DNA of 32,645 nucleotides from a virus, in IMG/VR virus record IMGVR_UViG_3300032236_000734, positions 1 to 32,645 of that record, one strand, 5' to 3'. Under the pieces are notes generated by a model. The model saw nothing but the letters and a program-made list of their open reading frames with translations. It searched no databases and was not told the origin of the DNA. The position numbers and the translations under genes were made by a program. Each line of letters begins with the position of its first letter. Position 1 is the first letter of the stretch. Shown piece after piece: positions 2,148-27,377 of this stretch.

Positions 2148-2402
2148 GTGGAATCAAAAATTTATCAACTCTACGGTATCGACACAGCTATGCACTTACT
2201 GCGCCCCGGCGCTAAGTGGGAGATCAGCAACACCATGTTCACACGTTGGGAAGACCCACGCCCGTGCCCGACTATGGAAGAAGTCATGGAAACGATGGAG
2301 AAGATAAAAGCGTTTGAGGACAGCATCAATACGATTTGGACTCAAGAGCAGATAGAACAATTACGTGGACAGCAAGAGATATACGACAGGGCGGTTGCAT
2401 GA
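2148..2402 (+). CDS. Small hypothetical protein (GTG start) after the tail fibre gene
   Basis: 84 residues, starting at GTG with a strong AAGGAGAAGG ribosome site directly upstream; no ATG fits as well. The N-terminal half (residues 1-40) looks globular and contains WEISNTMFTRWEDPRPCPT. Residues 43-78 are predicted helical and charged (MEEVMETMEKIKAFEDSINTIW, then EQIEQLRGQ). Small helical proteins encoded directly after tail fibre genes often act in fibre assembly, but nothing in the sequence proves this. It ends in a 4-base ATGA overlap with the oxygenase gene, so the two are translationally coupled. Confidence 0.75.
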   Translation: MESKIYQLYGIDTAMHLLRPGAKWEISNTMFTRWEDPRPCPTMEEVMETMEKIKAFEDSINTIWTQEQIEQLRGQQEIYDRAVA

Positions 2403-3007
2403 ACATAACTAACCTATTCCCAACAGCGGTAGGTTTTTCCAAACTCGGTCGTGATCTTACCGCCCGTGAGTTGGAGTTCATCATTGGTCAGGTGCGTTAT
2501 CCAAACGAAGGTAATACCACCAGCGAAAACAGAAAGATACTAAAGTCTGTTGAGTTGACAGAGATTCGTGAGTTTATTGAAGACGCAATGCTGGAGTATT
2601 TTAAGTCAGTGCATGCGCCTAAGTTTGATGTAACACCATACATAACGCAATCGTGGTCTAACTACACAGAGCCGGGTCAGTATCATCATAAACATGCTCA
2701 CCCCAACAGCATTATCTCTGGCGTGTTTTACCCGCAGGCGAACAAAGAAACAGACAGAATTTATTTTTACAAAGATGGTTACGAGCGCATCAAGATTCCA
2801 ACAGAAAACTGGAACCATTGGAATAGTGAGAGTTGGTGGTTTGATGTTGGTGCAGGAGACTTAATTATTTTCCCATCGCATTTAACGCACATGGTGCAGA
2901 CTAAGCAGGGCGACGGAACACGTATTAGCATTTCGTTTAACACCTTTGTTAAAGGTTACATTGGTTCGGACGAGAGTCTGACAGGACTTCATTTAGGAGA
3001 AGAGTAA
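2399..3007 (+). CDS. 2-oxoglutarate/Fe(II)-dependent oxygenase (phage TIGR02466-like)
   Basis: 202 residues, starting at the ATG that overlaps the previous stop (ATGA); a longer in-frame extension from 2336 would run inside the upstream gene and is not used. Residues 96-103 (HHKHAHPN) followed by SIISGVFYPQ give the first iron-ligand region. SHLTHMV (161-166) supplies the distal His, and TRISISFN (174-181) supplies the Arg that would bind 2-oxoglutarate. This order on a double-stranded beta-helix core matches the 2OG-Fe(II) oxygenase family common in marine and freshwater phages and cyanophages. The substrate is unknown; hydroxylation of a protein (for example tail fibre or host protein) or of a small molecule is possible. 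It lies among tail and structural genes, not replication genes. Confidence 0.85.
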   Translation: MNITNLFPTAVGFSKLGRDLTARELEFIIGQVRYPNEGNTTSENRKILKSVELTEIREFIEDAMLEYFKSVHAPKFDVTPYITQSWSNYTEPGQYHHKHAHPNSIISGVFYPQANKETDRIYFYKDGYERIKIPTENWNHWNSESWWFDVGAGDLIIFPSHLTHMVQTKQGDGTRISISFNTFVKGYIGSDESLTGLHLGEE

Positions 3008-4403: not shown

Positions 4404-5023
4404 TGGAATTAACTTTAAGCCAGCTACGGCAGTTCCTGCCTAAAAACAAATACGTCGAACATTGGCACGATGCTTTAAAACAGCTTCTGCCTGATTACGA
4501 CATCAACACACCACAAAGAATTGCTGCTTTCTTAGCTCAGTGTGCTCATGAGTCTGCTGGGTTTACTGCACTTAAAGAAAACCTTAACTACAAGCCTGCC
4601 ACATTGTTGAAGCTCTTTGGCAAATACTTTACTCCTGAGATGGCGGCGGTCTATTGTGCGAAACCTAATAAACAAGAAGCTATTGCTAACCGTATTTACG
4701 CTAATCGTATGGGCAATGGCAGCGAAGATTCTGGTGATGGCTACCGTTACTCTGGCAAAGGTCTTATCCAACTCACAGGTAAGTCCAATTACCAAGCGTT
4801 TGCCGACAGTTTAGAGATTACTCCGACTGAAGCTGCTGAGTACATGCAGACGTTTGAAGGTGCTTGCCAATCAGCTTGCTGGTTCTGGGAGACAAATAAC
4901 CTGAACAGGTTTGCAGATGTAGGTGACTTTGAAACAATGACTAAGCGTATTAACGGTGGAACTATTGGCTTAGAAGACAGGAAGAAACATTATGCAGAAG
5001 CTCTACATATTCTTGGCGCTTAG
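4403..5023 (+). CDS. Endolysin, glycoside hydrolase family 19 (chitinase-like lysozyme)
   Basis: 206 residues with the GH19 endolysin signature. HESAGF places the general acid Glu at residue 50, and ENLNY places the second catalytic Glu at 59. YRYSGKGLIQLTGKSNY (114-130) is the conserved core block, followed by a SACWFWETNNLN segment. It should cleave peptidoglycan glycan strands. There is no signal peptide or membrane segment, so release probably depends on a holin, for which the neighbouring small membrane proteins are candidates. The length fits single-domain phage GH19 endolysins with no separate wall-binding domain. The ribosome site is AGGGGG, 6 bases before the ATG. The start overlaps the upstream gene by one base, and the end overlaps the following lipoprotein gene by 32 bases. 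Confidence 0.93.
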   Translation: MELTLSQLRQFLPKNKYVEHWHDALKQLLPDYDINTPQRIAAFLAQCAHESAGFTALKENLNYKPATLLKLFGKYFTPEMAAVYCAKPNKQEAIANRIYANRMGNGSEDSGDGYRYSGKGLIQLTGKSNYQAFADSLEITPTEAAEYMQTFEGACQSACWFWETNNLNRFADVGDFETMTKRINGGTIGLEDRKKHYAEALHILGA

Positions 5024-5168
5024 TTTACTGGCTGGCTGTCAGGATAGATTTAGATATCCTTGCCAAAATCCGGCTAACTGGGATACTCCAGAGTGCAAGC
5101 CGCCTATTTGTACAGCAACACAGACCTGTCCTGACGATATAACCAAACCTGAGAAGGTGAGCAAATGA
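4992..5168 (+). CDS. Small Cys-rich phage lipoprotein
   Basis: 58 residues starting inside the end of the endolysin gene (32-base overlap, different frame). MQKLYIFLALSLLAGC is a lipoprotein signal sequence with lipobox LAGC, so Cys16 would be lipidated. The mature part (QDRFRYPCQNPANWDTPECK, then PPICTATQTCPDD) has four further Cys likely to form disulphides in the periplasm. I recognise the QDRFRYPC.NPANW..PEC pattern as a conserved small phage lipoprotein near lysis genes; its role is unknown. It ends in an ATGA overlap with the next gene. Confidence 0.78.
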   Translation: MQKLYIFLALSLLAGCQDRFRYPCQNPANWDTPECKPPICTATQTCPDDITKPEKVSK

Positions 5169-5563
5169 CTGAAGAACAACTAAACGCTTGGCTGAAGTTT
5201 GCTATCGGTATCTGCTTTTGTTTAATTCTAATGATGATGGCTAGTCTGTCTATGTACTCGGTAGTGTTTGTAACCCAGCCGATGAGCGGTATGGCACCAG
5301 CGGATAAGCAGTTCTTCTTGCTTTTATCAGACATGTCTAAATATATACTTGGTGCTTTGGCAACTTTAATCGCGGTCAAAGGGAAAGATCAGTTCATACC
5401 TCCTAACTTGACCACGGCTAAAGAACGTGAAGAAGCCTGTAAGCCTACACCAGTAGTTGCTCGTGTAGAGCCAAAGATTGAGTCTGTATCAAGTGCTGCC
5501 CCTGTAATTACTGGATACGGCGGTAAAGCTGCTCCACCACCTGCACCACAACCGGAGATTTGA
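5165..5563 (+). CDS. Two-span membrane protein with Pro-rich tail, holin candidate
   Basis: 132 residues. Two hydrophobic segments at about 10-37 (LKFAIGICFCLILMMMASLS and on) and 60-78 (ILGALATLIAV region) are separated by a short loop (TQPMSGMAPADKQFF). The tail from residue 85 is polar and Pro/Ala-rich (TPVVARVEP, then KAAPPPAPQPEI). Two spans plus a hydrophilic tail next to an endolysin and spanins fit a holin. The loop pattern (V.QPM....P.D..FF) also resembles an uncharacterised membrane protein found in related podoviruses. It starts at ATGA, coupled to the lipoprotein gene. Confidence 0.72.
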   Translation: MTEEQLNAWLKFAIGICFCLILMMMASLSMYSVVFVTQPMSGMAPADKQFFLLLSDMSKYILGALATLIAVKGKDQFIPPNLTTAKEREEACKPTPVVARVEPKIESVSSAAPVITGYGGKAAPPPAPQPEI

Positions 5564-5564
5564 T

Positions 5565-5723
5565 ATGAAAATGCTATTGATAACTATCCTGATGTTCACT
5601 GTTAACTTATCGTGGGCAGAAGGTGAGATGAAGAAGGTTTGCCACGACGAGAAGGGCAAGCAGGTCTGTAAGACTATTAAAGTCCATAAGAAGCTGGAAG
5701 GCACCAAGGTTCCTACCAAATGA
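5565..5723 (+). CDS. Small secreted periplasmic protein (52 aa)
   Basis: 52 residues. An N-terminal signal peptide MKMLLITILMFTVNLSWA is predicted to be cleaved after WA, leaving a basic mature peptide of about 34 residues (EGEMKKVCHDEKGKQVCKTI, then KVHKKLEG). The mature part has two Cys that could form one disulphide. The EGEMKKVC.D..GKQVCK pattern is one I recognise from phage lysis regions. Function unknown; it would act in the periplasm. It begins one base after the upstream stop and overlaps the Rz gene at ATGA. Confidence 0.72.
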   Translation: MKMLLITILMFTVNLSWAEGEMKKVCHDEKGKQVCKTIKVHKKLEGTKVPTK

Positions 5724-6187
5724 ATCCTATTATTGTCGTAGCTGGCGGTGTTCTGGTGGCATCTATGGCTTTCGGCACAGGCTATTGGCGAGGTCATTCT
5801 GCAGGAGAAGCTGAAGTCCAGCAAAAATGGGATCATGAGAAAGCAGACCAACTAGCAGCATATGCAAAAGCGCAAGATGAAGCTCGAGCACGTGAGCAAG
5901 AAATGCAAGTAAATGCTGATAAGCTAAGACAGGAGAAAGATCGTGAGATTCGTGATATTGCTGCTCGTAATGCCGCTCTTGTTAACAGCTTGCGCGACAG
6001 GCCAACCCGCCCCGCCGAAGGCAGTGCCGTGCCCAGTACTTCCAGCTCTGGATCCACCGCCTGTAATGGAGGCCAGCTTTACAGACAGGATGCGGAATTT
6101 CTTGCAGGGCTCGCTGCCGAAGCCGATCAGCTCAGAGCAGTCCTCAACCAGTGTTACAAACAATATAACGCAGCCAAAGTGAAGTAG
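5720..6187 (+). CDS. Rz: i-spanin (Rz-like inner-membrane lysis protein)
   Basis: 155 residues. It has an N-terminal signal-anchor (about 3-23, IIVVAGGVLVASMAFGTGYW), a long charged coiled coil (about 30-95, rich in Glu, Gln, Arg and Ala) and a C-terminal region with two Cys (TACNGG, LNQCYKQ). This is the layout of Rz-type i-spanins (DUF2514-like), which span the periplasm and pair with an outer-membrane lipoprotein to fuse the membranes in the last step of lysis. The matching o-spanin gene is nested in the +1 frame at 5943-6182. The start is coupled to the upstream gene by ATGA. Confidence 0.88.
   Translation: MNPIIVVAGGVLVASMAFGTGYWRGHSAGEAEVQQKWDHEKADQLAAYAKAQDEARAREQEMQVNADKLRQEKDREIRDIAARNAALVNSLRDRPTRPAEGSAVPSTSSSGSTACNGGQLYRQDAEFLAGLAAEADQLRAVLNQCYKQYNAAKVK
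5943..6182 (+). CDS. Rz1: o-spanin (Rz1-like lipoprotein) nested inside Rz
   Basis: 79 residues encoded entirely inside the i-spanin gene in another frame. It starts at GTG 5943, 7 bases after a good AGGAG at 5931-5935. MRFVILLLVMPLLLTACATG is a lipoprotein signal with lipobox LTAC, so lipidation at Cys17 is expected. The mature part starts Pro-rich (QPAPPKAVPCPVLPALDPPP), as usual for Rz1 proteins, followed by a helical segment that would contact Rz. Nested Rz/Rz1 genes are known from lambda-like and other Gram-negative phages. The close ribosome site and lipobox make this call strong despite the GTG start. Confidence 0.85.
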   Translation: MRFVILLLVMPLLLTACATGQPAPPKAVPCPVLPALDPPPVMEASFTDRMRNFLQGSLPKPISSEQSSTSVTNNITQPK

Positions 6188-17174: not shown

Positions 17175-17190
17175 CTACACGTGAATTATA
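17175..17190 (-). promoter_or_regulatory. Putative phage promoter, site 4 (perfect -10)
   Basis: On the minus strand a TATAAT (+ strand 17185-17190) shares its TAA with the stop codon of the hydroxymethylase gene. It is followed by CACGTGTAG (17175-17183), the counterpart of CTCATGTAG at three other sites, and then by a TTGAAAGG leader just upstream of the ATG at 17149. No clear -35 is present at 16-17 bases. It probably starts a short transcript for the last three minus-strand genes. Confidence 0.5.
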
Positions 17191-17971
17191 CATCCAAGAG
17201 CCAACGTGAGAATGGATGAGCTGTATCAATATGCTTATCCATTAACATATGTGCTTCATATCTTTGAATTCTAGGTGGTTTATCAGCCACAGGAATATGT
17301 TGTTGCTTTTTAAGTATCTCATTAAACATCTGCATACGGGATTCATAAACATGAAAAGACCCAACGGATATAGTCAATGCGCCTATTTCTGCATTAAGTA
17401 GGACTGCCACAATTTCTTGTAGGAACGAAAAAGTTGGGATATCATTAGCCATTCCCCATAAAATATCTTGGCTACGCATAATAACTCTCGCATTGAGCTT
17501 ACCACGGCGCAAGCGGAACTCAATAGCAATCGTACAGGGGACATCTTTAGCCTCCACGTCCATGTGATCCACATCAGTGCCAAACATAGGGATAACTGCT
17601 CGACGACTCATGGGGTCTTTTTGCAATAGTTTGACAATATGCCTAACGCCGTATTTGCCAAACCAATAGCTACCATAATTGCTATTTAGCTTACCATTGA
17701 CAACAATCTTACCCCATTGGGCTGCATGCTCTGAAATGGATGTATCAAAAGGGTCTGCTTTCACATACCATGCCATTTCACGCTTGAGATAGTTAAGGTT
17801 GAAATTACGACCAGCAAAAGAATTGAAGCGCACGAAAGGGCCAAGAGAATAAGTAAAGTTCTCTATTTCAAGTGTTTTTTCTCCTCGCGGGTTTGACTCG
17901 ACACCGCGGTATTCAAGTGCCTTATAGATAAGTATAAGATCTTCTTCATGATAGATGAGTGGTATTTCCAT
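17186..17971 (-). CDS. Deoxycytidylate (dCMP) hydroxymethylase, thymidylate synthase fold
   Basis: 261 residues with the thymidylate synthase fold. Motifs sit at the same numbers as in E. coli ThyA: SRR at 122-124, catalytic Cys146 (DVPC), R166-S-Q-D169, G173, and H207/Y209 (SFHVYE). The decisive difference is D177 (MANDIP), where thymidylate synthases have Asn177 (PFNI). That Asn selects dUMP, and Asp at this place is the hallmark of dCMP hydroxymethylases such as T4 gp42. The likely reaction is dCMP plus methylene-THF and water to 5-hydroxymethyl-dCMP. It overlaps the end of the dNMP kinase gene by 26 bases and is followed by a putative promoter. A ThyA-like methylase acting on dCMP is the main alternative. 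Confidence 0.85.
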   Translation of the reverse strand: MEIPLIYHEEDLILIYKALEYRGVESNPRGEKTLEIENFTYSLGPFVRFNSFAGRNFNLNYLKREMAWYVKADPFDTSISEHAAQWGKIVVNGKLNSNYGSYWFGKYGVRHIVKLLQKDPMSRRAVIPMFGTDVDHMDVEAKDVPCTIAIEFRLRRGKLNARVIMRSQDILWGMANDIPTFSFLQEIVAVLLNAEIGALTISVGSFHVYESRMQMFNEILKKQQHIPVADKPPRIQRYEAHMLMDKHIDTAHPFSRWLLDV

Positions 17972-18890
17972 AGTCGCTTTCTGTTACGTGATAAGGCTGG
18001 TGAGGGAAATGCTGCATGTGATATAACGGTGGTGGTAGCTTATAGGCTTGTATGTTATTGTTTAGCGCCCATGCGTAAGCGTTATTGCCTAAGGCAAAAA
18101 CTCTACTAGGCTTTAGCTCTTGTATAAATGACGAGTCAGTAGGTGTGCCTTGATAGTTTTGTGTATTGATCCAGTATAAGTCACTCTCTGGTACGCCTTC
18201 TCTTTCAAGTGTCTCAGCCAGCATACGACTAGGGCCATCATCATCTAGGAAGTTAATGAAAGGCACCACGGCTGCAGAGGCTTTAATATTGGTTCTAGGC
18301 CCTTTATCGCAAAGCATAAGTATATTACCGGGCTTAAAACTGCCACCTCCAGAAGCCCTATTAGGTGTGGATCTATTCACCAAAGTCTCAACGAGGGACT
18401 CCAGTGCATCTCTCTCGTAGTCATAATGCACAATTGGAAGGCAAGTTTGCTGTGGGAGTGTCTCGTAGGCCTCATATACTGCGCCAAGCTGCTCTGTTGT
18501 ATCTAAGTACTCAATGCCTTTGCGTTGCTTGAAAGTGTCGACGCATAATGACAAATCAGGTTGGCAATGTACAACCACTGCGCCACGAGATAATGCAACA
18601 CGTTCTAGCATACGACGCCTTGGCAAGTCTACACGATTGGCGCCATTACGATACACTGTGCCATAAATAGGTTCTGATAGCCATGACCGATCCATGATGA
18701 CATGATCATCATAAGTAAGTGCTTGAGTCATCGACCTAAAATACGTCTTACATAAGTCTTCGGTGCCCATTCCAGTATATGGGCCATGCTTAATAACATG
18801 AGCCATACGATCATTTTGGAATTTCTGTCGAAGCTTGTCAGCAAGGATGGTTTTACCACCCCCATCTGGCCCCTCAAGAATTACTATCAT
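17946..18890 (-). CDS. P-loop deoxynucleoside monophosphate kinase fused to UDG-like domain
   Basis: 314 residues. Residues 1-175 are a thymidylate-kinase-type P-loop kinase: Walker A GPDGGGKT (7-14), the DRSWLSEPIYGTVYR block (67-81) with the DR motif, and a QRKG lid-like stretch (122-125). After a Gly/Ser linker (about 178-186), residues 188-314 resemble the uracil-DNA glycosylase superfamily: GPSRMLAETLEREGV, then DLYWINTQ, then LKPSRVFALGNNAYAWAL and a PPPLYHMQHF end similar to the HP-Y-RF motif. The catalytic residues of family 4 UDG are not evident. Between a dCMP hydroxymethylase and a glycosyltransferase-like gene, the kinase probably phosphorylates hydroxymethyl-dCMP, as T4 gp1 does. 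The role of the second domain is unknown. Its ATG abuts the glycosyltransferase stop directly. Confidence 0.78.
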   Translation of the reverse strand: MIVILEGPDGGGKTILADKLRQKFQNDRMAHVIKHGPYTGMGTEDLCKTYFRSMTQALTYDDHVIMDRSWLSEPIYGTVYRNGANRVDLPRRRMLERVALSRGAVVVHCQPDLSLCVDTFKQRKGIEYLDTTEQLGAVYEAYETLPQQTCLPIVHYDYERDALESLVETLVNRSTPNRASGGGSFKPGNILMLCDKGPRTNIKASAAVVPFINFLDDDGPSRMLAETLEREGVPESDLYWINTQNYQGTPTDSSFIQELKPSRVFALGNNAYAWALNNNIQAYKLPPPLYHMQHFPHQPYHVTESDYGNTTHLS

Positions 18891-19778
18891 TTATAACCAC
18901 CCTTCTACGTTTAACAGCGTATCATGTAGAGTTGCTGTTTTTAGCTTATCTGCTTGAAGCCATGCAAGATATTCACGTGCTTCATCGCTCATTTTCTCAA
19001 TTTCTTTTAAAGTATATCCGTAGGCCGGATGTATGATGCCGGTTTCTTTCGGGTCACTACCGAGTATAGATCCGCTGTGCGCAGCATGTAGATAACGGAC
19101 TCTCCACCATCCACAACCTGCATGGGCATAGGTAGGACAAAGCACGCCTTTATATCCCCCGTATTCCCACACAATCTGAGATTCCAAGAGCCTAGGCTGT
19201 CCAAGGGACTTTCCACCCACGGAATGTAAAGACCATGTAAGATGTTGTCCGGCAGCCCAATCATGTGCGTCTTTCGATAATGATGCGTTATACCACTCTG
19301 TTTTACGCTGATCCCAACGCAACTTATGAGTAGCAGGTAGTTTATATAATGGCGATGGATCCCAATGACGTAAGTCATCAACCGGCAAATCCATCAATTT
19401 AGGATCACCCCATGGAAATAATGGTGCCAACCATGTGCGCTTAGTTAAAGTGTCTGCACTAATTCGTGTTTCCCATGTGGGTATCACACGTTGGAAAGAC
19501 CAATCATCCAAGCAAATCCATGCATCTGGCCGTTGTGCCAGTGCCCATATTGCGCCATCTGTGTTAGTAGCATTATGGTCAATAGGGTATAGGTACACAA
19601 AGACTTTATCATACTCAGATAAATCATCTCCAGATGCAACTGCTTGATGGTAGACATCATGCCCTAAGCGCTCGAAAGCATTACACATCAATGCTGGAAT
19701 AGATACAAACTTTGTAGAGCTTGCTCGATCAGGATGATTTGTATGCGTCTCGGTGACGCCGGTAATAAGGATCTTCAT
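18891..19778 (-). CDS. Putative DNA (hydroxymethylcytosine) glycosyltransferase, T4 BGT-like GT-B fold
   Basis: 295 residues. The N-terminal half reads like T4 beta-glucosyltransferase: MKILITGV start, ASSTKFVSIPAL helix, ERLGHDV, LSEYDKVFVYLYP, GAIWAL, and WICLDDW (88-93), where D92 lines up with the BGT catalytic base D100. A WYNASLSKDA segment follows. The C-terminal half has YGG (206-208), GVLCPTYAHAGCGWWRVRYL (211-230) and GSILGSDPKE (236-245), matching the sugar-nucleotide-binding part of BGT around R269. I align this by eye, without a search, so the fold is a strong guess and the donor sugar unknown. The gene order with hydroxymethylase and kinase supports a role in glycosylating hydroxymethylcytosine in phage DNA. 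The start overlaps the upstream stop (TAATG). Confidence 0.65.
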   Translation of the reverse strand: MKILITGVTETHTNHPDRASSTKFVSIPALMCNAFERLGHDVYHQAVASGDDLSEYDKVFVYLYPIDHNATNTDGAIWALAQRPDAWICLDDWSFQRVIPTWETRISADTLTKRTWLAPLFPWGDPKLMDLPVDDLRHWDPSPLYKLPATHKLRWDQRKTEWYNASLSKDAHDWAAGQHLTWSLHSVGGKSLGQPRLLESQIVWEYGGYKGVLCPTYAHAGCGWWRVRYLHAAHSGSILGSDPKETGIIHPAYGYTLKEIEKMSDEAREYLAWLQADKLKTATLHDTLLNVEGWL

Positions 19779-19990
19779 TATTCACTCAATGAGATATAAC
19801 CTGCTTCAACATCATGGTTAATGTCACCTGAGCGACCACCTTGCTCAAGATATTCTGCAACGATCATACCATTTTTGTATAGTGCAAAGCGATCAAATGA
19901 TAATGATGCTGGGCGTTTAGGGTTGCCTTTGAATACAACTGTGATGGTTGCATTCTTATTGACGTGACGACGCGACTTAGTCTCTGACAT
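19778..19990 (-). CDS. Small conserved phage protein (70 aa)
   Basis: 70 residues from the ATG at 19988-19990, preceded by AAGGAG with an 8-base spacing; an upstream extension to 20041 lacks such a site. It is basic at the start (MSETKSRRHVNKNATITVVF), then PKRPASLSFDRFALYKNGM, then VAEYLEQGGRSGDINHDVEA. I recognise the PKRP-S-S-DRFALYK-GM-V-EYL pattern as a small conserved protein in replication regions of many phages; its function is unknown. It is probably a small nucleic-acid-associated protein. It is coupled by TAATG to the glycosyltransferase gene. Confidence 0.72.
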   Translation of the reverse strand: MSETKSRRHVNKNATITVVFKGNPKRPASLSFDRFALYKNGMIVAEYLEQGGRSGDINHDVEAGYISLSE

Positions 19991-20037
19991 AGCAGGATCT
20001 CCTTGTTGTGTGAGTAATGGAATGGCATGCATACTTT

Positions 20038-21423
20038 TCAAATATCAATAGCTGCAATTTTATCACGTTGCACGTAATCACGCACAGCGTTTAACAGATT
20101 TTGTTGAGTCTTATCTTTGCGCTTAACGGCTGACATGATGGCTTCATCCACAGTATCTTTAGCAATAATGTGGTGTACTACAATGTGGTTTTTCTGTCCT
20201 TGCCTCCAGAGTCGGCGTATGAATTGCTCATAGACTTCAAGTGACCAAGTGAGTGAGTACCAGATAACCGCATGACCAGAGCCTTGTAAGTTAAGACCGT
20301 GGCCAGCTGACATCGGATGCGCAAGTAAAACTGGAATCTCCATGGCGTTCCATGCGCGAATAATGCTATCAAGTCGAGAACCCACAACACCAGAACCAAT
20401 GATTGGAGCTTCAGGAAACGCAGCTTGGAGTCTTTCCAAGTCGTGCTGAAAATGATACCCGATAATGCAAGGTTGTCCTGACAACTCCTCCACCAAATCT
20501 TGAACCGCCTGTGTTTTGGCATCGTGAATGTGGATGGTTTGTTTTTTTTCTCCATCTAAATAAGATCCTCCATTGGCCACTTGTTGACATTTCATGACAG
20601 CCACGGCTGCATTCACAGCGGTTATATTGCCATATTGCAAATCAATGGTTAGGTCATCTTCAAGGCTCTGGTAAATTTTCTTAGCATCTGCAGGTAGATC
20701 TACCACAATATTGTTATACGTTAGCTCAGGCAAATCTAGATGGTCTAGTGCCGCCATTCTAAGCACCTTACCTTCTAACCTATCGTAGATTTGTTGTTCA
20801 CCTTGTGGTTTGATCTTCCATTCATATCCACCAAAGCCAGATGGATAGAAGTAGGTATTTTTAAAATGCGTGATGTAAGGGCCAAAAGTAGCGCCTTGGT
20901 CAATGATATATTGAGGGCCAAAGATATCCAATAGACTATTAGGCGCAGGTGAGCCAGTTAAACCCCAACGGCGATCAAACTTGTTCAACAAAGGCTTTAG
21001 CGTTTTAAAGCGTTGCGTTTGTGTATTCTTTAAGTAAGAACTTTCGTCAATAACTAGAATATCAAATGGCCAAGGCTTACCATTGAGTTGAGATGATAGC
21101 CAACCAATGCCTTCAAAGTTAATAACAAAAATGTCGTTATTTTGCTTAAGTACTTTGGCTTTGTTAGGACCATGCAATACGCCTACTGAGTAGTCTGCAA
21201 ACTGCTCCCATTTCTTAATCTCAGCCGGCCATACTGCATGTACAGGCCGTAAAGGGGCAATGACTAGCATCTTTTTTGCAAGCCCTTTTGTACGTAATAC
21301 TCTATAAGCTGACAGCACAACTGAGGTTTTGCCTAGGCCCGGGTCTAGCCAAAGAGAACCAGAACCTCTAGTAATGAGGAACTTTACAGCCTCTTTTTGA
21401 TACTCATGCGGTTCCCAAAACAC
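20038..21423 (-). CDS. SNF2-family DNA helicase/translocase
   Basis: 461 residues, starting at GTG with AAGGGATC upstream and overlapping the nuclease gene by 20 bases. Motif order: PHEYQKEAV (Q-like motif), Walker A LDPGLGKT (26-33), motif Ia VIAPLRPV, DESS (126-129) as motif II followed by YLKN, motif III GLTGSPAPN (154-162), and in the C-terminal lobe HPMSAGHGLNLQ (motif V) and QFIRRLWRQGQ (motif VI). This is the SNF2/DEXH-box set. The length fits phage single-subunit helicases used in replication or recombination. It is the largest helicase in the window, so it may do the main unwinding, but a replicative helicase could lie elsewhere in the genome. Confidence 0.92.
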   Translation of the reverse strand: MFWEPHEYQKEAVKFLITRGSGSLWLDPGLGKTSVVLSAYRVLRTKGLAKKMLVIAPLRPVHAVWPAEIKKWEQFADYSVGVLHGPNKAKVLKQNNDIFVINFEGIGWLSSQLNGKPWPFDILVIDESSYLKNTQTQRFKTLKPLLNKFDRRWGLTGSPAPNSLLDIFGPQYIIDQGATFGPYITHFKNTYFYPSGFGGYEWKIKPQGEQQIYDRLEGKVLRMAALDHLDLPELTYNNIVVDLPADAKKIYQSLEDDLTIDLQYGNITAVNAAVAVMKCQQVANGGSYLDGEKKQTIHIHDAKTQAVQDLVEELSGQPCIIGYHFQHDLERLQAAFPEAPIIGSGVVGSRLDSIIRAWNAMEIPVLLAHPMSAGHGLNLQGSGHAVIWYSLTWSLEVYEQFIRRLWRQGQKNHIVVHHIIAKDTVDEAIMSAVKRKDKTQQNLLNAVRDYVQRDKIAAIDI

Positions 21424-21691
21424 TATCGATCCCTTCTTTAGAGTCTATAACGTGGACATCATGGCCTAGATTTTGGAGTTCTTTGTGTATCTTTGCTTGT
21501 AACGGCGATACTTTGCCTCCGGGCCTCTTCAGTTCTACCCATAATGTATTTCCACCAGATAGCACCACGATCCGGTCGGGCCACCCCCTGGCAAAGTGGA
21601 CATGTAGCTTTAATGTGAGGAGGCTTTTCTTTTTGCATTGTCTTGTAAAATAAGCTTCAAGGTCGCGCTCAAGTAGAACTTTGGTTACCAT
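21404..21691 (-). CDS. VRR-NUC domain nuclease
   Basis: 95 residues from the ATG at 21689-21691 (a TTG 6 bases upstream is an alternative). It starts TKVLLERDLEAYFTRQCKKK and continues to HFARGWPDRIVVL, then TLWVELKRPGGKVSPLQ, with the GWPDR and ELK catalytic motifs of the VRR-NUC (PD-(D/E)XK-like) family. QAKIHKELQNLGHDVHVIDS completes the fold. Small stand-alone VRR-NUC proteins are common in phages and cleave branched DNA or Holliday-junction-like structures. It lies between a SNF2 helicase and a RecB-like nuclease with short overlaps. Confidence 0.92.
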   Translation of the reverse strand: MVTKVLLERDLEAYFTRQCKKKSLLTLKLHVHFARGWPDRIVVLSGGNTLWVELKRPGGKVSPLQAKIHKELQNLGHDVHVIDSKEGIDSVLGTA

Positions 21692-22326
21692 TGGCAAGGC
21701 CCGCCATTATCTTTACGAAAGTGGCACCAACGGCAATTATTACTCGGTTTTGGCGCGTAAATGTCATCCCTTTCAATGCGAACAATACGATTTCCAATCC
21801 ATTCTTTAAGAAATGTGAAGTCTTTGCGCGTATACGTAGGCATTGCGGTTTGCTTATGAAGATCAATATAGCAAATTTCAGTAGTAACTTTTTCTACTTT
21901 CGGATACTCAGCCAAGATAATAGCTGCGTACAACTTGAGTTGATCTCCATAATCGCGCTCTTTACCTGTCTTCCAATCCAATACATGAGCATGATCACCA
22001 TCAATCCACAGCACGTCGTAAATACCACGAAGCCAAGCATTGGCAGCAAGAAAATCAGTGCGAACCCAGTCTTTTGTAATCGCAAACTGTACTTCACTTT
22101 TAGCCCCTTTTGCAATAAGTGCTGCAACGTAATCATTCCAATACGCAAATGTACCGTCAAGTTTTTGCTGTAAATCAAGCGCATTTTCAAACGTAGTATG
22201 AATATCTTTGCCACGTTGTGCTGCATCGCCTGTAGGTTCTTTTAAACCTTCTATGCGAGTTAGCTTATACTTATATGGGCATTCCTCATAAGTTTTAATT
22301 GAAGAATGCGATAAGGTTTTTGCCAT
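21685..22326 (-). CDS. PD-(D/E)XK exonuclease, RecB/Cas4-like, with probable Fe-S cluster
   Basis: 213 residues. The N-terminal SSIKTYEECPYKYKL gives Cys16. RGKDIHTTFE (39-47) supplies the motif I His, GIYDVLW the Asp104, and VLDWKTGK the Asp117/Lys119 pair, followed by QLKLY. The C-terminus CRWCHFRKDNGGPC provides Cys198, Cys201 and Cys211. Four Cys placed this way are the Fe-S cluster ligands known from AddB- and Cas4-type nucleases. It is probably a phage recombination or end-processing exonuclease, acting with the adjacent VRR-NUC, helicase and DNA polymerase. The start is coupled to the upstream small gene as TGATG. Confidence 0.9.
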   Translation of the reverse strand: MAKTLSHSSIKTYEECPYKYKLTRIEGLKEPTGDAAQRGKDIHTTFENALDLQQKLDGTFAYWNDYVAALIAKGAKSEVQFAITKDWVRTDFLAANAWLRGIYDVLWIDGDHAHVLDWKTGKERDYGDQLKLYAAIILAEYPKVEKVTTEICYIDLHKQTAMPTYTRKDFTFLKEWIGNRIVRIERDDIYAPKPSNNCRWCHFRKDNGGPCQW

Positions 22327-22418
22327 CAAGGTCTCCAGATAAATAAATCAAGTAGTTCTACAATAAAGACGGCAATATAAGTAATTACTAACCACCAGAT
22401 GTAATCAATATCATTCAT
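22326..22418 (-). CDS. Tiny membrane protein (30 aa)
   Basis: 30 residues: MNDIDYIWWLVITYIAVFIV and then ELLDLFIWRP, essentially one membrane span with a short charged start. It is linked on both sides, its ATG overlapping the CorA stop (ATGA) and its stop overlapping the nuclease start (TGATG), which supports translation. It could be a membrane partner of the CorA-like protein, or a coupling peptide. Such short proteins are hard to confirm by eye. Confidence 0.5.
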   Translation of the reverse strand: MNDIDYIWWLVITYIAVFIVELLDLFIWRP

Positions 22419-23323
22419 CTTAACCAACCTTTGCGCCAGAAAATATAAAAAGGAGTCAACGCAGTTGCAACCATAATAGCAAGCGATAGGGGGTACCCTA
22501 ATGCCCATTCAAGTTCAGGCATGTGTTTAAAGTTCATGCCATAAATACTTGCAACCAATGTGGGTGGAAGGAACACAACTGATGCAACTGAGAAAATTTT
22601 AATAATTTTGTTTTGATTGATACTAATAAAACCTCGAATTGCATCCATCAAAAAGTTAATCTTTGCAAAGATAAATTCTGTATGGCTTTCAAGACTTTCA
22701 ATATCGATATGCAATTGGTTGGCATGCTCAGTCTGGTCTGTATTTAAAAACTTGCCTTTGACCATAAATGAGATTAGTCGATGCGTATCCAATAAGTTTT
22801 GTCGAATCTTGCCATTAACATCTTCTTCATGCGCAATAACGTTCAAAGCTTCTGTTGCCTGCTCATCAGAAAAATTAGGCGTCATAACGTACTCAGATAC
22901 GCGTTCTAATTTGACATGAATACCGGCCAATACATCTGCAGTCAATTCAATATCGGTCTCATAAAGGCAAAACAATAAATCTTTTTCATCAGAAAGCAAG
23001 TGTGGCGTAGTCTTGGTGATGTTTACTACAGCATTAAATGTATCTAATTCACTTTGGCGAAAAGAAATAAGCGTGCCATCAACTAAAATAAATGACACCG
23101 ATTTTGCGCCATCTGGTGTAAGAAAGTTATTCTTTAAATGTATGTGCCCATCTTCTGTTTTAAAGAATTGCACAGCCAACTCACTATCTTCTAGCTTTAA
23201 ATTATAAGCCTGCTGTACTTGTAGTAGCTCATCTGTTGTGGGGTCAATCAAGTCTTGCCAGATATAAGGTGGCTGCGTAGTGTCTACCAACTTTGCGTCT
23301 TGTAATGTGTAGCCTCGAATCAT
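22415..23323 (-). CDS. CorA-type Mg2+/divalent-cation channel
   Basis: 302 residues with the full CorA layout. A soluble cytoplasmic domain (1-235) is followed by a long stalk helix (about 185-245), a first membrane segment (FSVASVVFLPPTLVASI), the YGMNF signature in the loop with MPEL after it, and a second membrane segment near the basic C-terminus (LAIMVATALTPFYIFWRKGW). The length is near that of bacterial CorA proteins. It starts with CAGGAGACAAA upstream and overlaps the DNA polymerase stop as ATGA, so it is co-transcribed with replication genes. A phage-encoded CorA is unusual; a role in raising Mg2+ for DNA replication is an inference. Confidence 0.9.
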   Translation of the reverse strand: MIRGYTLQDAKLVDTTQPPYIWQDLIDPTTDELLQVQQAYNLKLEDSELAVQFFKTEDGHIHLKNNFLTPDGAKSVSFILVDGTLISFRQSELDTFNAVVNITKTTPHLLSDEKDLLFCLYETDIELTADVLAGIHVKLERVSEYVMTPNFSDEQATEALNVIAHEEDVNGKIRQNLLDTHRLISFMVKGKFLNTDQTEHANQLHIDIESLESHTEFIFAKINFLMDAIRGFISINQNKIIKIFSVASVVFLPPTLVASIYGMNFKHMPELEWALGYPLSLAIMVATALTPFYIFWRKGWLR

Positions 23324-25137
23324 TTTGTCTCCTGATAGCTATTGCCTATCTTATAGTCACTCACCATAGGCACTGACATTTCCAAGGCATTACACATGGC
23401 ATTGGTAAGACATAATGCCTCACGTTCTATATTATCCTCAGGCGCACTAATAACTAATTCATCATGCACACTTAATAGTAAGCGACTACCTTGCCGTGTT
23501 TTTTGATACAGCAACATGGCAGCCTTAGCTTGATCGGCTGCAGAGCCTTGAATAAGAAGGTTAACGCCTTTATAGTCAAACTCTCGAAGTCTACCATTGA
23601 TAACCTTTGGGGGTTCCATTTTTACCAAGCGCCCACCAAGAGTTTTAATGGGTTGGCCAAGTTTATACCTTGTACGCATAGTTGCCTGCATTGCCTTGAG
23701 GCCCGGGGCTACAGCAGTGGTATAGGCATCCATCAATGTCTTTGCCAAGCCATAGTCAATCTCAAGCATTTCACTAATCTTCTTAGGCCCAGCCCCATAA
23801 AGAATAGCAAAGGATACGCCTTTGGAATAAGTACGGCTAACCTCGCGGCCACTTGCTTGTGTCATCATATTGGCGGCGTATGTATGCAAATCAGCTCTTG
23901 CATCTTGCTGATATTGTTGCATAAGATTGCCACCTTCAAAGTGAGCAAAGATACGTAACTCTTGAGCATTGAAGTCACATGCAACCAGCTTATGGCCTTC
24001 ATCAGGAAGAATGAAGCTACGCACCAATGGTAGTTCTGCTACATTTAAATCGTCGGGCAGTTTAACTTTTGGGTATCTGACCGGAGCATTTTGGAAATTT
24101 GGAGTACTACTGAGCCGTCCGGTCCGGGTCCCACCACGCTCACCTCTAACACTGTTCCAATTGGTATAGATGCGGCCCGTAGATCTACCCGATGCAAGCC
24201 AAGGTTCAATGAAAGTTGAGAGGCATGTAGATAGATTTGCCCTATATCGGAGGACATCTCGAAGGTACTCATTAGTTAGCATCTCCTCTAAAGCTTCTTT
24301 GGTTGCCTGCATCTGGCCTTTGTCTGTGGTAGGCCAAGTTTTATTTCTATCCCAATGCTTGGACATATAAATACATTCGACTAGCTGTTGATCGCTGTCG
24401 ACATTTAATTCAGGAGAATTCAAACATGTACGAACCCAATCATTACACAAAGCAATATCTACTGTCGCTTGTAGTCTTGCTTTTTCTAAACCTGGGACAT
24501 CAACTCGAACCCCTAACCGTGAGTTTTCAAGTAACATTGGCATCAACTCAATCTCACGAAGATAAGCCTCTTGTTGAGCCGGTAAAACGTGAGAAGAAAC
24601 GAAGTCAAAAAGCTTTGAAGTAAGCCGCACATCGGCTTGAGCATAACGACCTACCAGCTCGACTGGTCCTTTACTGATGTGTGCTCCCCATTGTGACTTT
24701 TTTCGTTTAGCTTCAGGGACGTTATTAATGATCCATTCTTTAAGTTCATCTCGTTCGTCTGGTCTGTCGAGGTTCCAATGCGTAACAAGATCTTTGAGTG
24801 ATAGTGAAGGAGTATGTGGGTCGAAGAGAAAAGAAAGAATGAGAGTATCGTGTATCCGAACAGGGTCAGGGATTGTAAGGCCGAAATGGCTATCAGCAAC
24901 ATCCAAGTCAAATAGGGCATTATGAAAGCAGAGCTGGCGAGTAGATTCATACATACTCCTCATTAAGTTAATTACAACGTCTTGTGTAGTGGTATTACCG
25001 GTAATATGCCCAAACGCAAAGTAACCATTGGGGAATTCATTTTCCGGATCATATACAGCCAAGCCAACTGGCTTAGGTGGATATAGAGGGCGTGCCTCAA
25101 TACCTTCGGTTTCAAAGTCTAAGAAGATGGGTTTCAC
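23320..25137 (-). CDS. DNA polymerase I family (PolA) with 3'-5' exonuclease
   Basis: 605 residues from a GTG start at 25135-25137, which fits best: it follows AAGGTATACC and begins at KPIFLDFETEG, the exonuclease motif. Exonuclease motifs are D7/E9 (FLDFETEG), N73 and D77 (FHNALFDLD) and Y165..D169 (YAQADV). Polymerase motif A is at D388 (CDFNAQELR), motif B runs R435 to Y447 (RTYSKGVSFAILYG) with K439, and motif C is H558-D559 (SVHDELV). There is no 5'-3' exonuclease domain, as in T7-type polymerases. Phe443 occupies the site of E. coli PolA Phe762. It heads a run of replication genes, overlapping the CorA gene as ATGA. Confidence 0.95.
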   Translation of the reverse strand: MKPIFLDFETEGIEARPLYPPKPVGLAVYDPENEFPNGYFAFGHITGNTTTQDVVINLMRSMYESTRQLCFHNALFDLDVADSHFGLTIPDPVRIHDTLILSFLFDPHTPSLSLKDLVTHWNLDRPDERDELKEWIINNVPEAKRKKSQWGAHISKGPVELVGRYAQADVRLTSKLFDFVSSHVLPAQQEAYLREIELMPMLLENSRLGVRVDVPGLEKARLQATVDIALCNDWVRTCLNSPELNVDSDQQLVECIYMSKHWDRNKTWPTTDKGQMQATKEALEEMLTNEYLRDVLRYRANLSTCLSTFIEPWLASGRSTGRIYTNWNSVRGERGGTRTGRLSSTPNFQNAPVRYPKVKLPDDLNVAELPLVRSFILPDEGHKLVACDFNAQELRIFAHFEGGNLMQQYQQDARADLHTYAANMMTQASGREVSRTYSKGVSFAILYGAGPKKISEMLEIDYGLAKTLMDAYTTAVAPGLKAMQATMRTRYKLGQPIKTLGGRLVKMEPPKVINGRLREFDYKGVNLLIQGSAADQAKAAMLLYQKTRQGSRLLLSVHDELVISAPEDNIEREALCLTNAMCNALEMSVPMVSDYKIGNSYQETK

Positions 25138-25145
25138 GGTATACC

Positions 25146-25424
25146 TTAGTTGGAAAACCAGCGGAGACGTGGCATACATTGCACGTCAATAATGATATCA
25201 GACATCATACCTGACACCATACGCTTAGAAATAATTGGCACAGCACGTAAGCCGTTGGTTTCACAATCACCTACGGCATGGATAACTTCATTACGGCTCA
25301 TTTGTTGTGCACGTGGATCCACTATAATGGGCACTACAGGAGGTTCTGAGTAAGATGTGATAGGTTTATTGGTACCACATGCTGATAGGCTTAGAAGCCC
25401 TATTATCAATAGCAATTTATTCAT
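25146..25424 (-). CDS. Small phage lipoprotein before polA
   Basis: 92 residues from the ATG at 25422-25424, which has AGGA 5 bases upstream; an earlier in-frame ATG 12 bases upstream is overlapped by that site. MNKLLLIIGLLSLSACG is a lipoprotein signal with the lipobox LSAC. The mature domain (QQMSRNEVIHAVGDCETNGL, then RAVPIISKRMVSGMM and VQCMPRLRW) matches a small conserved lipoprotein I recognise near replication genes of podoviruses. It should be attached to the outer membrane or periplasmic face. The function is unknown; superinfection exclusion is a possibility without direct support. Confidence 0.75.
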   Translation of the reverse strand: MNKLLLIIGLLSLSACGTNKPITSYSEPPVVPIIVDPRAQQMSRNEVIHAVGDCETNGLRAVPIISKRMVSGMMSDIIIDVQCMPRLRWFSN

Positions 25425-26377: not shown

Positions 26378-26743
26378 TTACTTGCGACGAACGGAAAGTT
26401 CCCAGACAGACGACGGCTTTGTGCCGGGGATTGTTTCACCTGCTTCCCACCGCTCACGGAAAACAGTTGAGGATAAACGCTTGTGAAGAAGTTCAAATTG
26501 ATTTGTTGATGCAACATAGCTATAGAAGGCGTCCCAGTCTTCGATGGCTGGGTGGACGGTTTCTCGCATTGAGCAGCTAGCCTTATCCGACGCGGCTTGC
26601 GTAATTCCTGCGTTTGCCATTTGCTCCATAATGTCGGCCTCAATTTGCGCCAATTTTTCGTTACATTTTTTGATGTCCTCATTTAAGCTTTCCTTCAAAG
26701 CTTTGGTTTCAACAAACATGTCGATAAGATCAGAGATTTTCAT
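26378..26743 (-). CDS. Conserved phage protein with N-terminal coiled coil
   Basis: 121 residues. Residues 1-45 form a charged coiled coil (IDMFVETKALKESLNEDIKK, then CNEKLAQIEADIMEQM). The C-terminal part (DWDAFYSYVASTNQFELLHK, then RLSSTVFRERWEAGETIPG) contains the RLSST-RERWE-G-xIPG pattern of a small conserved phage protein family of unknown function. It lies between the MazG-like enzyme and the probable SSB, and the start overlaps the upstream stop as ATGA. A nucleic-acid or replication-associated role is likely only by position. Confidence 0.7.
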   Translation of the reverse strand: MKISDLIDMFVETKALKESLNEDIKKCNEKLAQIEADIMEQMANAGITQAASDKASCSMRETVHPAIEDWDAFYSYVASTNQFELLHKRLSSTVFRERWEAGETIPGTKPSSVWELSVRRK

Positions 26744-27141
26744 AGCTCACCTTGCTTGCTTTGGATGATGGCCAACATCTCACCTTCAGGTGCAGTCCAG
26801 CCCGGAGGCTTAATGACATCGTATTGGCTACCTCTCATAGAGCGCAAATACTCATTAGCAGGTTCCTTAGCCATATTAGCGCGGTGGACAACGCTGAATA
26901 ATTCATCGAAAGGTATTCCCATGGCGTGAGCACAACCAAGGGCAACATACACCAGATCAACAACAGCGTCCGCAGCGTCAACAAGACTATTCTCCTCACA
27001 TGCACGTAAGTACTCAGATAACTCTTCCATGATAAAACGAGCGAAATAGGATGCCTCACTCGCAGGTAATAGATGGGGGTCTATGGACATAGGCAACCCC
27101 ATTTTGGTTCTAAATTCACCTACATTTTTGAAGTACGTCAT
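26740..27141 (-). CDS. MazG-like all-alpha NTP pyrophosphohydrolase
   Basis: 133 residues from the ATG at 27139-27141, which overlaps the upstream stop (ATGA) and has GGAG 8 bases away; the in-frame start 30 bases earlier is not needed. The catalytic layout is E39/E40 and E43 (EELSEY), D58 and D62 (DAADAVVDLVYVALG), then GIPFDELFSVVHRANMAKE. This matches phage phosphoribosyl-ATP-pyrophosphatase/MazG-type all-alpha enzymes with the NMaK ending. Members hydrolyse dNTPs such as dCTP or dUTP. Here it could supply a dCTPase activity like T4 gp56, keeping unmodified cytosine out of DNA. Confidence 0.82.
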   Translation of the reverse strand: MTYFKNVGEFRTKMGLPMSIDPHLLPASEASYFARFIMEELSEYLRACEENSLVDAADAVVDLVYVALGCAHAMGIPFDELFSVVHRANMAKEPANEYLRSMRGSQYDVIKPPGWTAPEGEMLAIIQSKQGEL

Positions 27142-27377
27142 TCTGTTGTCTCCACGTTTGAGCTTTTCCAAAAGATGTCACCCCAAAGGACTGTGTTAGG
27201 GGCAGTGTGTGGCTTAATCTCATCAACCCATTCATTGACATGATAAGCTATGCAATACATCTCGCAATCATCAGCACCGACGCTAAATTCAAAATCCATT
27301 GCTAAGTTGATGGCCATCTCAGGTGTATTGCAAATGGCTACAAGAGTGTCGTAGTTATAAACTAAATAGACTTCCAT
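27138..27377 (-). CDS. Hypothetical protein (79 aa)
   Basis: 79 residues, acidic, starting MEVYLVYNYDTLVAICNTPE and continuing to DFEFSVGADDCEMYCIAYHV with three Cys in all. It looks like a compact beta-sheet plus helix. It overlaps its upstream neighbour at TAATG and the downstream MazG-like gene at ATGA. I do not recognise the family. It may be a small antirestriction or host-takeover protein, but nothing specific supports that. Confidence 0.62.
   Translation of the reverse strand: MEVYLVYNYDTLVAICNTPEMAINLAMDFEFSVGADDCEMYCIAYHVNEWVDEIKPHTAPNTVLWGDIFWKSSNVETTE

Follow-up and report, generated by a model that had tools for sequence, protein, structure and literature searches.

Several described phage systems serve as a reference for the locus considered here, and viral DNA glycosyltransferases as such have already been reported (Pyle et al. 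2024, as cited in PMC13216743). T4 combines a dCMP hydroxymethylase of the ThyA fold (gp42), a dNMP kinase (gp1) and a DNA beta-glucosyltransferase (BGT). In the 85-kb Enterococcus phages VFW and VPE25, a ThyA with Asp at the position of Asn177 of thymidylate synthase lies beside a glucosyltransferase; VFW has this Asp-type ThyA, a dUTPase and a homologue of T4 BGT side by side. RB69-type phages, which have an arabinosyl-cytosine pathway, are reported to use a homologous 5-hydroxy-dCMP synthase (PMC13390438). Of the restriction enzymes tried on the DNA of phage AXL3, only two cut it, both with A/T-only sites; another 35, all with G/C in the recognition site, left it uncut (PMC7504290).

We analysed a linear virus record of IMG/VR (IMGVR_UViG_3300032236_000734; 32,645 nucleotides, hereafter the window), which is probably a fragment. 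We consider it quite probable that three of its genes form a cassette for hypermodification of DNA cytosine, with activities, substrates, sugar and protective effect that we infer. This reading draws on the invariant Cys146 and Asp177 of the ThyA-fold protein, its hydroxymethylase neighbours in the PDB and its gp42-like motifs, together with the BGT-like model of the glycosyltransferase (GT), synteny across about 70 loci, co-occurrence in 13 plus 5 GT-bearing records, and AXL3.

As predicted from sequence and fold, the cassette probably makes a modified cytosine and then attaches a sugar to it in viral DNA. The ThyA-like enzyme would hydroxymethylate dCMP using methylene-THF, with Cys146 attacking and Asp177 selecting cytosine. 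The kinase domain would then phosphorylate 5hm-dCMP, and a host NDP kinase would turn the resulting diphosphate into 5hm-dCTP, which the phage PolA would incorporate into DNA. The MazG-like pyrophosphohydrolase, a possible dCTPase whose specificity for dCTP is presumed, may remove dCTP, and the UDG-like domain of the kinase protein may recognise the modified base. Finally, the GT-B enzyme would move a sugar from a presumably host-made nucleotide sugar onto 5-hydroxymethylcytosine (5hmC) in the polymer, where it would mask the DNA from restriction and perhaps from CRISPR nucleases.

The gene cluster and its conserved surroundings

The features of the locus are as follows.

17186–17971, minus strand: ThyA-fold protein, predicted dCMP 5-hydroxymethylase (PF00303, 1.2e-19; Cys and Asp invariant; nearest PDB sequences MilA and T4 gp42)
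17441–17443, minus strand: codon for Asp177 of the ThyA-fold protein, at the Asn177 position of thymidylate synthase
17534–17536, minus strand: codon for the catalytic Cys146 of the ThyA-fold protein
17946–18890, minus strand: dNMP kinase fused to a UDG-superfamily-like domain, 314 aa (full length kept in AXL3, PW916 and ctUtU524)
17991–18350, minus strand: C-terminal UDG-superfamily-like domain, residues ~181–300 (PF03167 in family members; motif columns)
18375–18890, minus strand: kinase domain, residues 1–172, with Walker A GPDGGGKT and a DRSW motif (phrog_761, 2.5e-18; Foldseek; motifs conserved)
18891–19778, minus strand: GT-B glycosyltransferase, predicted acceptor 5hmC in DNA (AF2 pLDDT 92.7; T4 BGT at Foldseek ranks 1–5)
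19503–19505, minus strand: codon for the invariant Asp92 of the GT
19778–20041, minus strand: small conserved ORF upstream of the GT (43–73% in clade loci; no family match in Pfam or PHROGs)
20038–21423, minus strand: SNF2-type helicase, in the conserved block (phrog_62, 1.7e-136)
21685–22329, minus strand: PD-(D/E)XK exonuclease, in the conserved block (PF12705, 1.1e-23)
23320–25179, minus strand: PolA-type DNA polymerase, presumed to incorporate 5hm-dCTP (PF00476, 3.2e-58)
26740–27171, minus strand: MazG/PRA-PH-like nucleotide pyrophosphohydrolase (PF01503, 7.9e-16; phrog_671, 2.9e-24)

A first-pass annotation had placed three adjoining genes at 17186–19778, and the exact ORF coordinates bear this out, with all three on the minus strand and tightly packed. 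The ThyA and kinase genes overlap by 26 bases and the GT stop codon is followed directly by the kinase ATG, an operon-like arrangement. The gene order from polymerase through exonuclease, helicase, small ORF, GT and kinase to ThyA is kept in about 70 other IMG/VR loci, a number in which a few contigs appear twice; this excludes chance as an explanation for the three-gene cluster. The carriers of this block are a widespread, uncultured group of mid-sized bacterial viruses. Between polymerase and exonuclease, the window has a CorA-like magnesium transporter gene (22415–23323; PF01544, 1.9e-44) that was found in no other locus of the comparison. Its tail and lysis region includes a 2OG-Fe(II) oxygenase (2336–3007; phrog_81, 3.7e-44).

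Among the sister contigs that we read through, of 57–60 kb, one (G001) encodes terminase and portal matches; no portal gene was found in the window itself. The G001 portal is 47–59% identical to those of Caulobacter RW/MW202545 and 31–35% to those of pelagiphages HTVC023P/HTVC027P and Roseobacter phages (CRP-901/902). The HTVC023P type is described as podoviruses (PMC9599517), so a podovirus identity for the window phage is suggested only indirectly, through relatives of a sister contig's portal. PolA is closest to those of ctUtU524, PW916 and AXL3, which hold the kinase fusion. Given that portal and polymerase point to different relatives, the replication-modification block may have passed from one virion type to another.

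The predicted hydroxymethylase and the kinase fusion

Numbering from Met as residue 1 (an alignment reference without Met gives 145/176), Cys146 and Asp177 of the ThyA-fold protein are invariant in an alignment of a clade sample, T4 gp42, AXL3 and ctUtU524. A sequence search of the PDB places MilA CMP 5-hydroxymethylase (4.1e-16) and T4 dCMP hydroxymethylase (1e-13) first, with all thymidylate synthases ranking below. The first-pass reading of a hydroxymethylase with Asn177 changed to Asp in a ThyA fold thus agrees both with the invariant Asp177 and with the closest solved structures by sequence, which are cytosine hydroxymethylases. A single PF00303 gene is present in every one of 13 contigs from the clade. 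By identity, the closest relatives in cultured phages are those of Acinetobacter MD-2021a and Xanthomonas Xp15, where Asp is present and a NodU-like carbamoyltransferase is encoded nearby.

Two alternatives concern the product of this enzyme. It could be an ordinary thymidylate synthase or a dCMP methylase, in which case the genes would serve nucleotide supply. Pfam and NCBIfam do name it thymidylate synthase, and the kinase is annotated as thymidylate kinase in relatives. Counter to this, its NCBIfam thymidylate synthase scores fall far below the cut-off, the adjacent GT has no role in dTMP supply, Asp177 is invariant, and the td thymidylate synthase of Aes508 keeps Asn at this position in the alignment that shows Asp in ThyA proteins of GT-bearing records outside the clade. 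An ordinary thymidylate synthase is unlikely given Asp177, and we regard the nucleotide-supply explanation overall as very improbable.

Alternatively, the enzyme could make 5-hydroxy-dCMP, as its homologue in RB69-type phages reportedly does, with the GT adding sugar directly via the C5 hydroxyl. The RB69-type synthase is a homologue that also has Asp (PMC13390438), and one GT relative occurs in the arabinose-type Morganella phage Rgz1. However, the active-site motifs of the window enzyme (RSQD, HVY, NSNYG) are those of T4 gp42 (RSxD, HVY, NSNYG), whereas RB69p048 and the Rgz1 homologue have RSQN, HVF and NTFYG. Likewise, the window protein matches gp42 over its full length (2e-18) but RB69p048 only partially (1e-10). 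We judge this second alternative improbable, if slightly less so than the first. Because its motifs are shared with gp42 and not with RB69p048 or Rgz1, we place the window enzyme with the hydroxymethylases and predict that it turns dCMP into 5-hydroxymethyl-dCMP.

The first-pass annotation had called the second protein a dNMP kinase in the manner of T4 gp1. This holds for its N-terminal half, to which the kinase-type matches are confined (phrog_761 as listed; YorR 2axp, 3e-7) and whose fold retrieves YorR and thymidylate kinases in Foldseek; homology to gp1 was not significant (hhalign probability 6%, P-loop only), and the second, UDG-like domain had been missed. By sequence and predicted structure, the kinase domain belongs to the P-loop dNMP kinases and is thymidylate kinase/YorR-like.

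Of 45 family members, 6 match the Pfam UDG family PF03167, the strongest at 4.9e-5, and the window protein alone has no match. At the glycosylase motif positions, most relatives outside the clade have VG(E/D) and HPQ, and the window and its clade sisters have LCDKGP and PPP. These altered motifs suggest that in the clade the domain is more likely to recognise a base than to excise it. A search of genome contigs recovered one Gallionella MAG contig, possibly from a phage or prophage, that encodes a protein related to the kinase fusion over nearly its full length; no host of the window phage was obtained from this search.

The predicted glycosyltransferase, its likely acceptor and possible sugar donors

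The GT gave no informative sequence match among Pfam, PHROGs, NCBIfam or PDB profiles, and none at the sequence level to a characterised glycosyltransferase. Its AlphaFold2 model, built on 42 aligned sequences, is confident (pLDDT 92.7, pTM 0.89). A structural search of the third protein, put forward in the first-pass annotation as a check, identifies a GT-B enzyme: in Foldseek against the PDB, T4 BGT takes ranks 1–5 (E 2.2e-8 to 1.2e-5, TMq 0.53–0.57, rmsd 7–8), followed by other GT-B enzymes. A BFVD search gave mostly uncharacterised viral proteins at the top, one of them from a Gordonia phage. At the sequence level, hhalign against single T4 BGT or AGT sequences was not significant, and a profile-profile comparison with a BGT family alignment was marginal (probability 69–73%, E 3–4.5e-5) and covered the C-terminal region only. 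The alignment of distant GT members is too divergent for scanning.

D92, E199, R226, R228 and E245 of the GT are invariant (in 42 and 31 aligned sequences). Aligned by eye, BGT D100, R195 and R269 correspond to GT D92, R196 and R228, of which R196 is mostly conserved. The position of the ribose-binding Glu272 of BGT is not conserved in the GT (H/Q/Y/F/I, by eye), and E245 might replace it. Since D92 and R228 are invariant and R196 is mostly kept but the E272 position is not, we suggest that the GT probably works like BGT without filing it as a member of the BGT family. The earlier label "T4-BGT-like" thus stands for the fold, likeness in sequence being marginal at most; the GT forms its own family.

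T4-like Aeromonas phages have homologues of the GT, as do actinobacterial, Gordonia and cyanophage-like viruses. Among 18 GT-bearing records outside the clade, which are not phylogenetically independent, 13 have an Asp-type ThyA and 5 a TET/JBP oxygenase, the latter scoring above Pfam's cut-off in records that lack ThyA and lying upstream of the GT at a distance of up to about 3.6 kb. In none of the 18 do both exceed the Pfam cut-off; the TET matches of one ThyA record are weak and fall below it. In the window's clade, TET/JBP is absent from the 4 contigs searched. TET enzymes act on DNA, so the common denominator of the two GT contexts is a 5-hydroxymethylpyrimidine in the polymer. As Asp-type ThyA and TET/JBP both give 5-hydroxylated pyrimidines, the co-occurrence pattern makes 5hmC in DNA the likely acceptor. 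This either/or pairing with a nucleotide-level hydroxymethylase or a DNA-level oxygenase would point to the acceptor even without a cultured phage. Rgz1, one of the 13 ThyA records, has the RB69-type enzyme, and its acceptor may therefore be 5-hydroxycytosine.

It is also conceivable that hydroxymethylcytosine is made but that the GT has another target, for instance a protein or a surface glycan. No assay of the GT family is known to us, and its common neighbour, UDP-galactopyranose mutase, is usually a surface-glycan gene. Arguing against such a target, all 18 records have one or the other source of hydroxylated pyrimidine, the GT sits between the replication and hydroxymethylase genes in clade loci that extend far enough, and its best structural match is a DNA glucosyltransferase. 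We consider a different acceptor unlikely, and retain 5hmC in DNA as the probable one.

The identity of the sugar is a separate matter. Nothing in the window sequence indicates glucose. Outside the clade, UDP-galactopyranose mutase is adjacent to the GT in 27 of 46 loci; at some loci two GT copies flank a mutase and could build a two-sugar chain. Cyanophage-like contigs have a TET/JBP oxygenase, a GT of this family and the mutase as neighbours. Within the clade, the mutase was considered as a local sugar source and is absent from 13 contigs of 38–111 kb, perhaps incomplete, so the nucleotide sugar is presumably host made. In Rgz1, the GT-family gene (5001–6068 of the Rgz1 locus) is adjacent to an arabinose-5-phosphate isomerase gene, and its product has near-identical copies in two Providencia phages. 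Some related phages carry arabinose genes without a known transferase (PMC8056088).

These neighbours lead us to a tentative proposal, which we hold to be possible but rather doubtful: the family would comprise phage DNA glycosyltransferases with furanose or other non-glucose donors (UDP-galactofuranose beside the mutase, arabinose beside the isomerase), and most cytosines in the window's clade would bear a non-glucose sugar. To our knowledge, galactofuranosylated 5hmC DNA has not been described. The mutase and isomerase neighbours render the donor directly testable, and the Rgz1-type GT is offered as a candidate arabinosyltransferase for Morganella and Providencia T4-like phages.

Comparison with known systems

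AXL3, PW916 and ctUtU524 share with the window the kinase fusion, an Asp-type ThyA and a related PolA and helicase. They differ in having a SAM methyltransferase and an NTP pyrophosphohydrolase at the GT's place and a dCMP deaminase downstream; the GT homologue search gave no match in AXL3. The AXL3 digestion pattern fits cytosine modification by the shared kinase-ThyA core and, as AXL3 is without this GT, supports the core only. Restriction resistance of the window phage's DNA would follow by analogy, with AXL3 as the one measured case. In many phages with kinase fusion and ThyA, these two are surrounded by a SAM methyltransferase, a MazG-like pyrophosphohydrolase and a dCMP deaminase. Such phages have no GT of the family, which suggests that their modified cytosine ends up with another cap.

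In the cassettes of TET/JBP, GT and mutase, as in the window, a member of the GT family has a source of 5-hydroxymethylpyrimidine as its neighbour. These cassettes have an oxygenase in place of the nucleotide-level hydroxymethylase, and a mutase that the window's clade is without. The RB69-type pathway likewise has a ThyA-family enzyme and a thymidylate-kinase-like protein, and in Rgz1 a GT-family gene beside the isomerase. It differs in the active site of RB69p048, and no isomerase or sugar genes were seen near the window cassette.

The Enterococcus phages come close in layout, with a compact module in which an Asp-type ThyA lies beside a glucosyltransferase. Theirs is a true T4-BGT homologue (41.7% identity), and no kinase-UDG fusion was seen beside the module. 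The first-pass annotation had stressed a cassette without the large T4 genome; it is indeed compact here, but since the Enterococcus ThyA-dUTPase-BGT module already exists, the compactness is not new.

Like T4 itself, the window combines an Asp-bearing ThyA-fold enzyme with a dNMP kinase and with a GT-B enzyme, here one whose model is BGT-like. Its kinase belongs to a different P-loop family from gp1 and is fused to the UDG-like domain, its GT has no sequence-level kinship to BGT from single sequences, and its genes are adjacent, in contigs of about 50–60 kb with PolA. If our reading is correct, a widespread clade of environmental phages would shield its DNA as T4 does, via a separate and largely uncharacterised GT family and with a kinase fused to a glycosylase-like domain.
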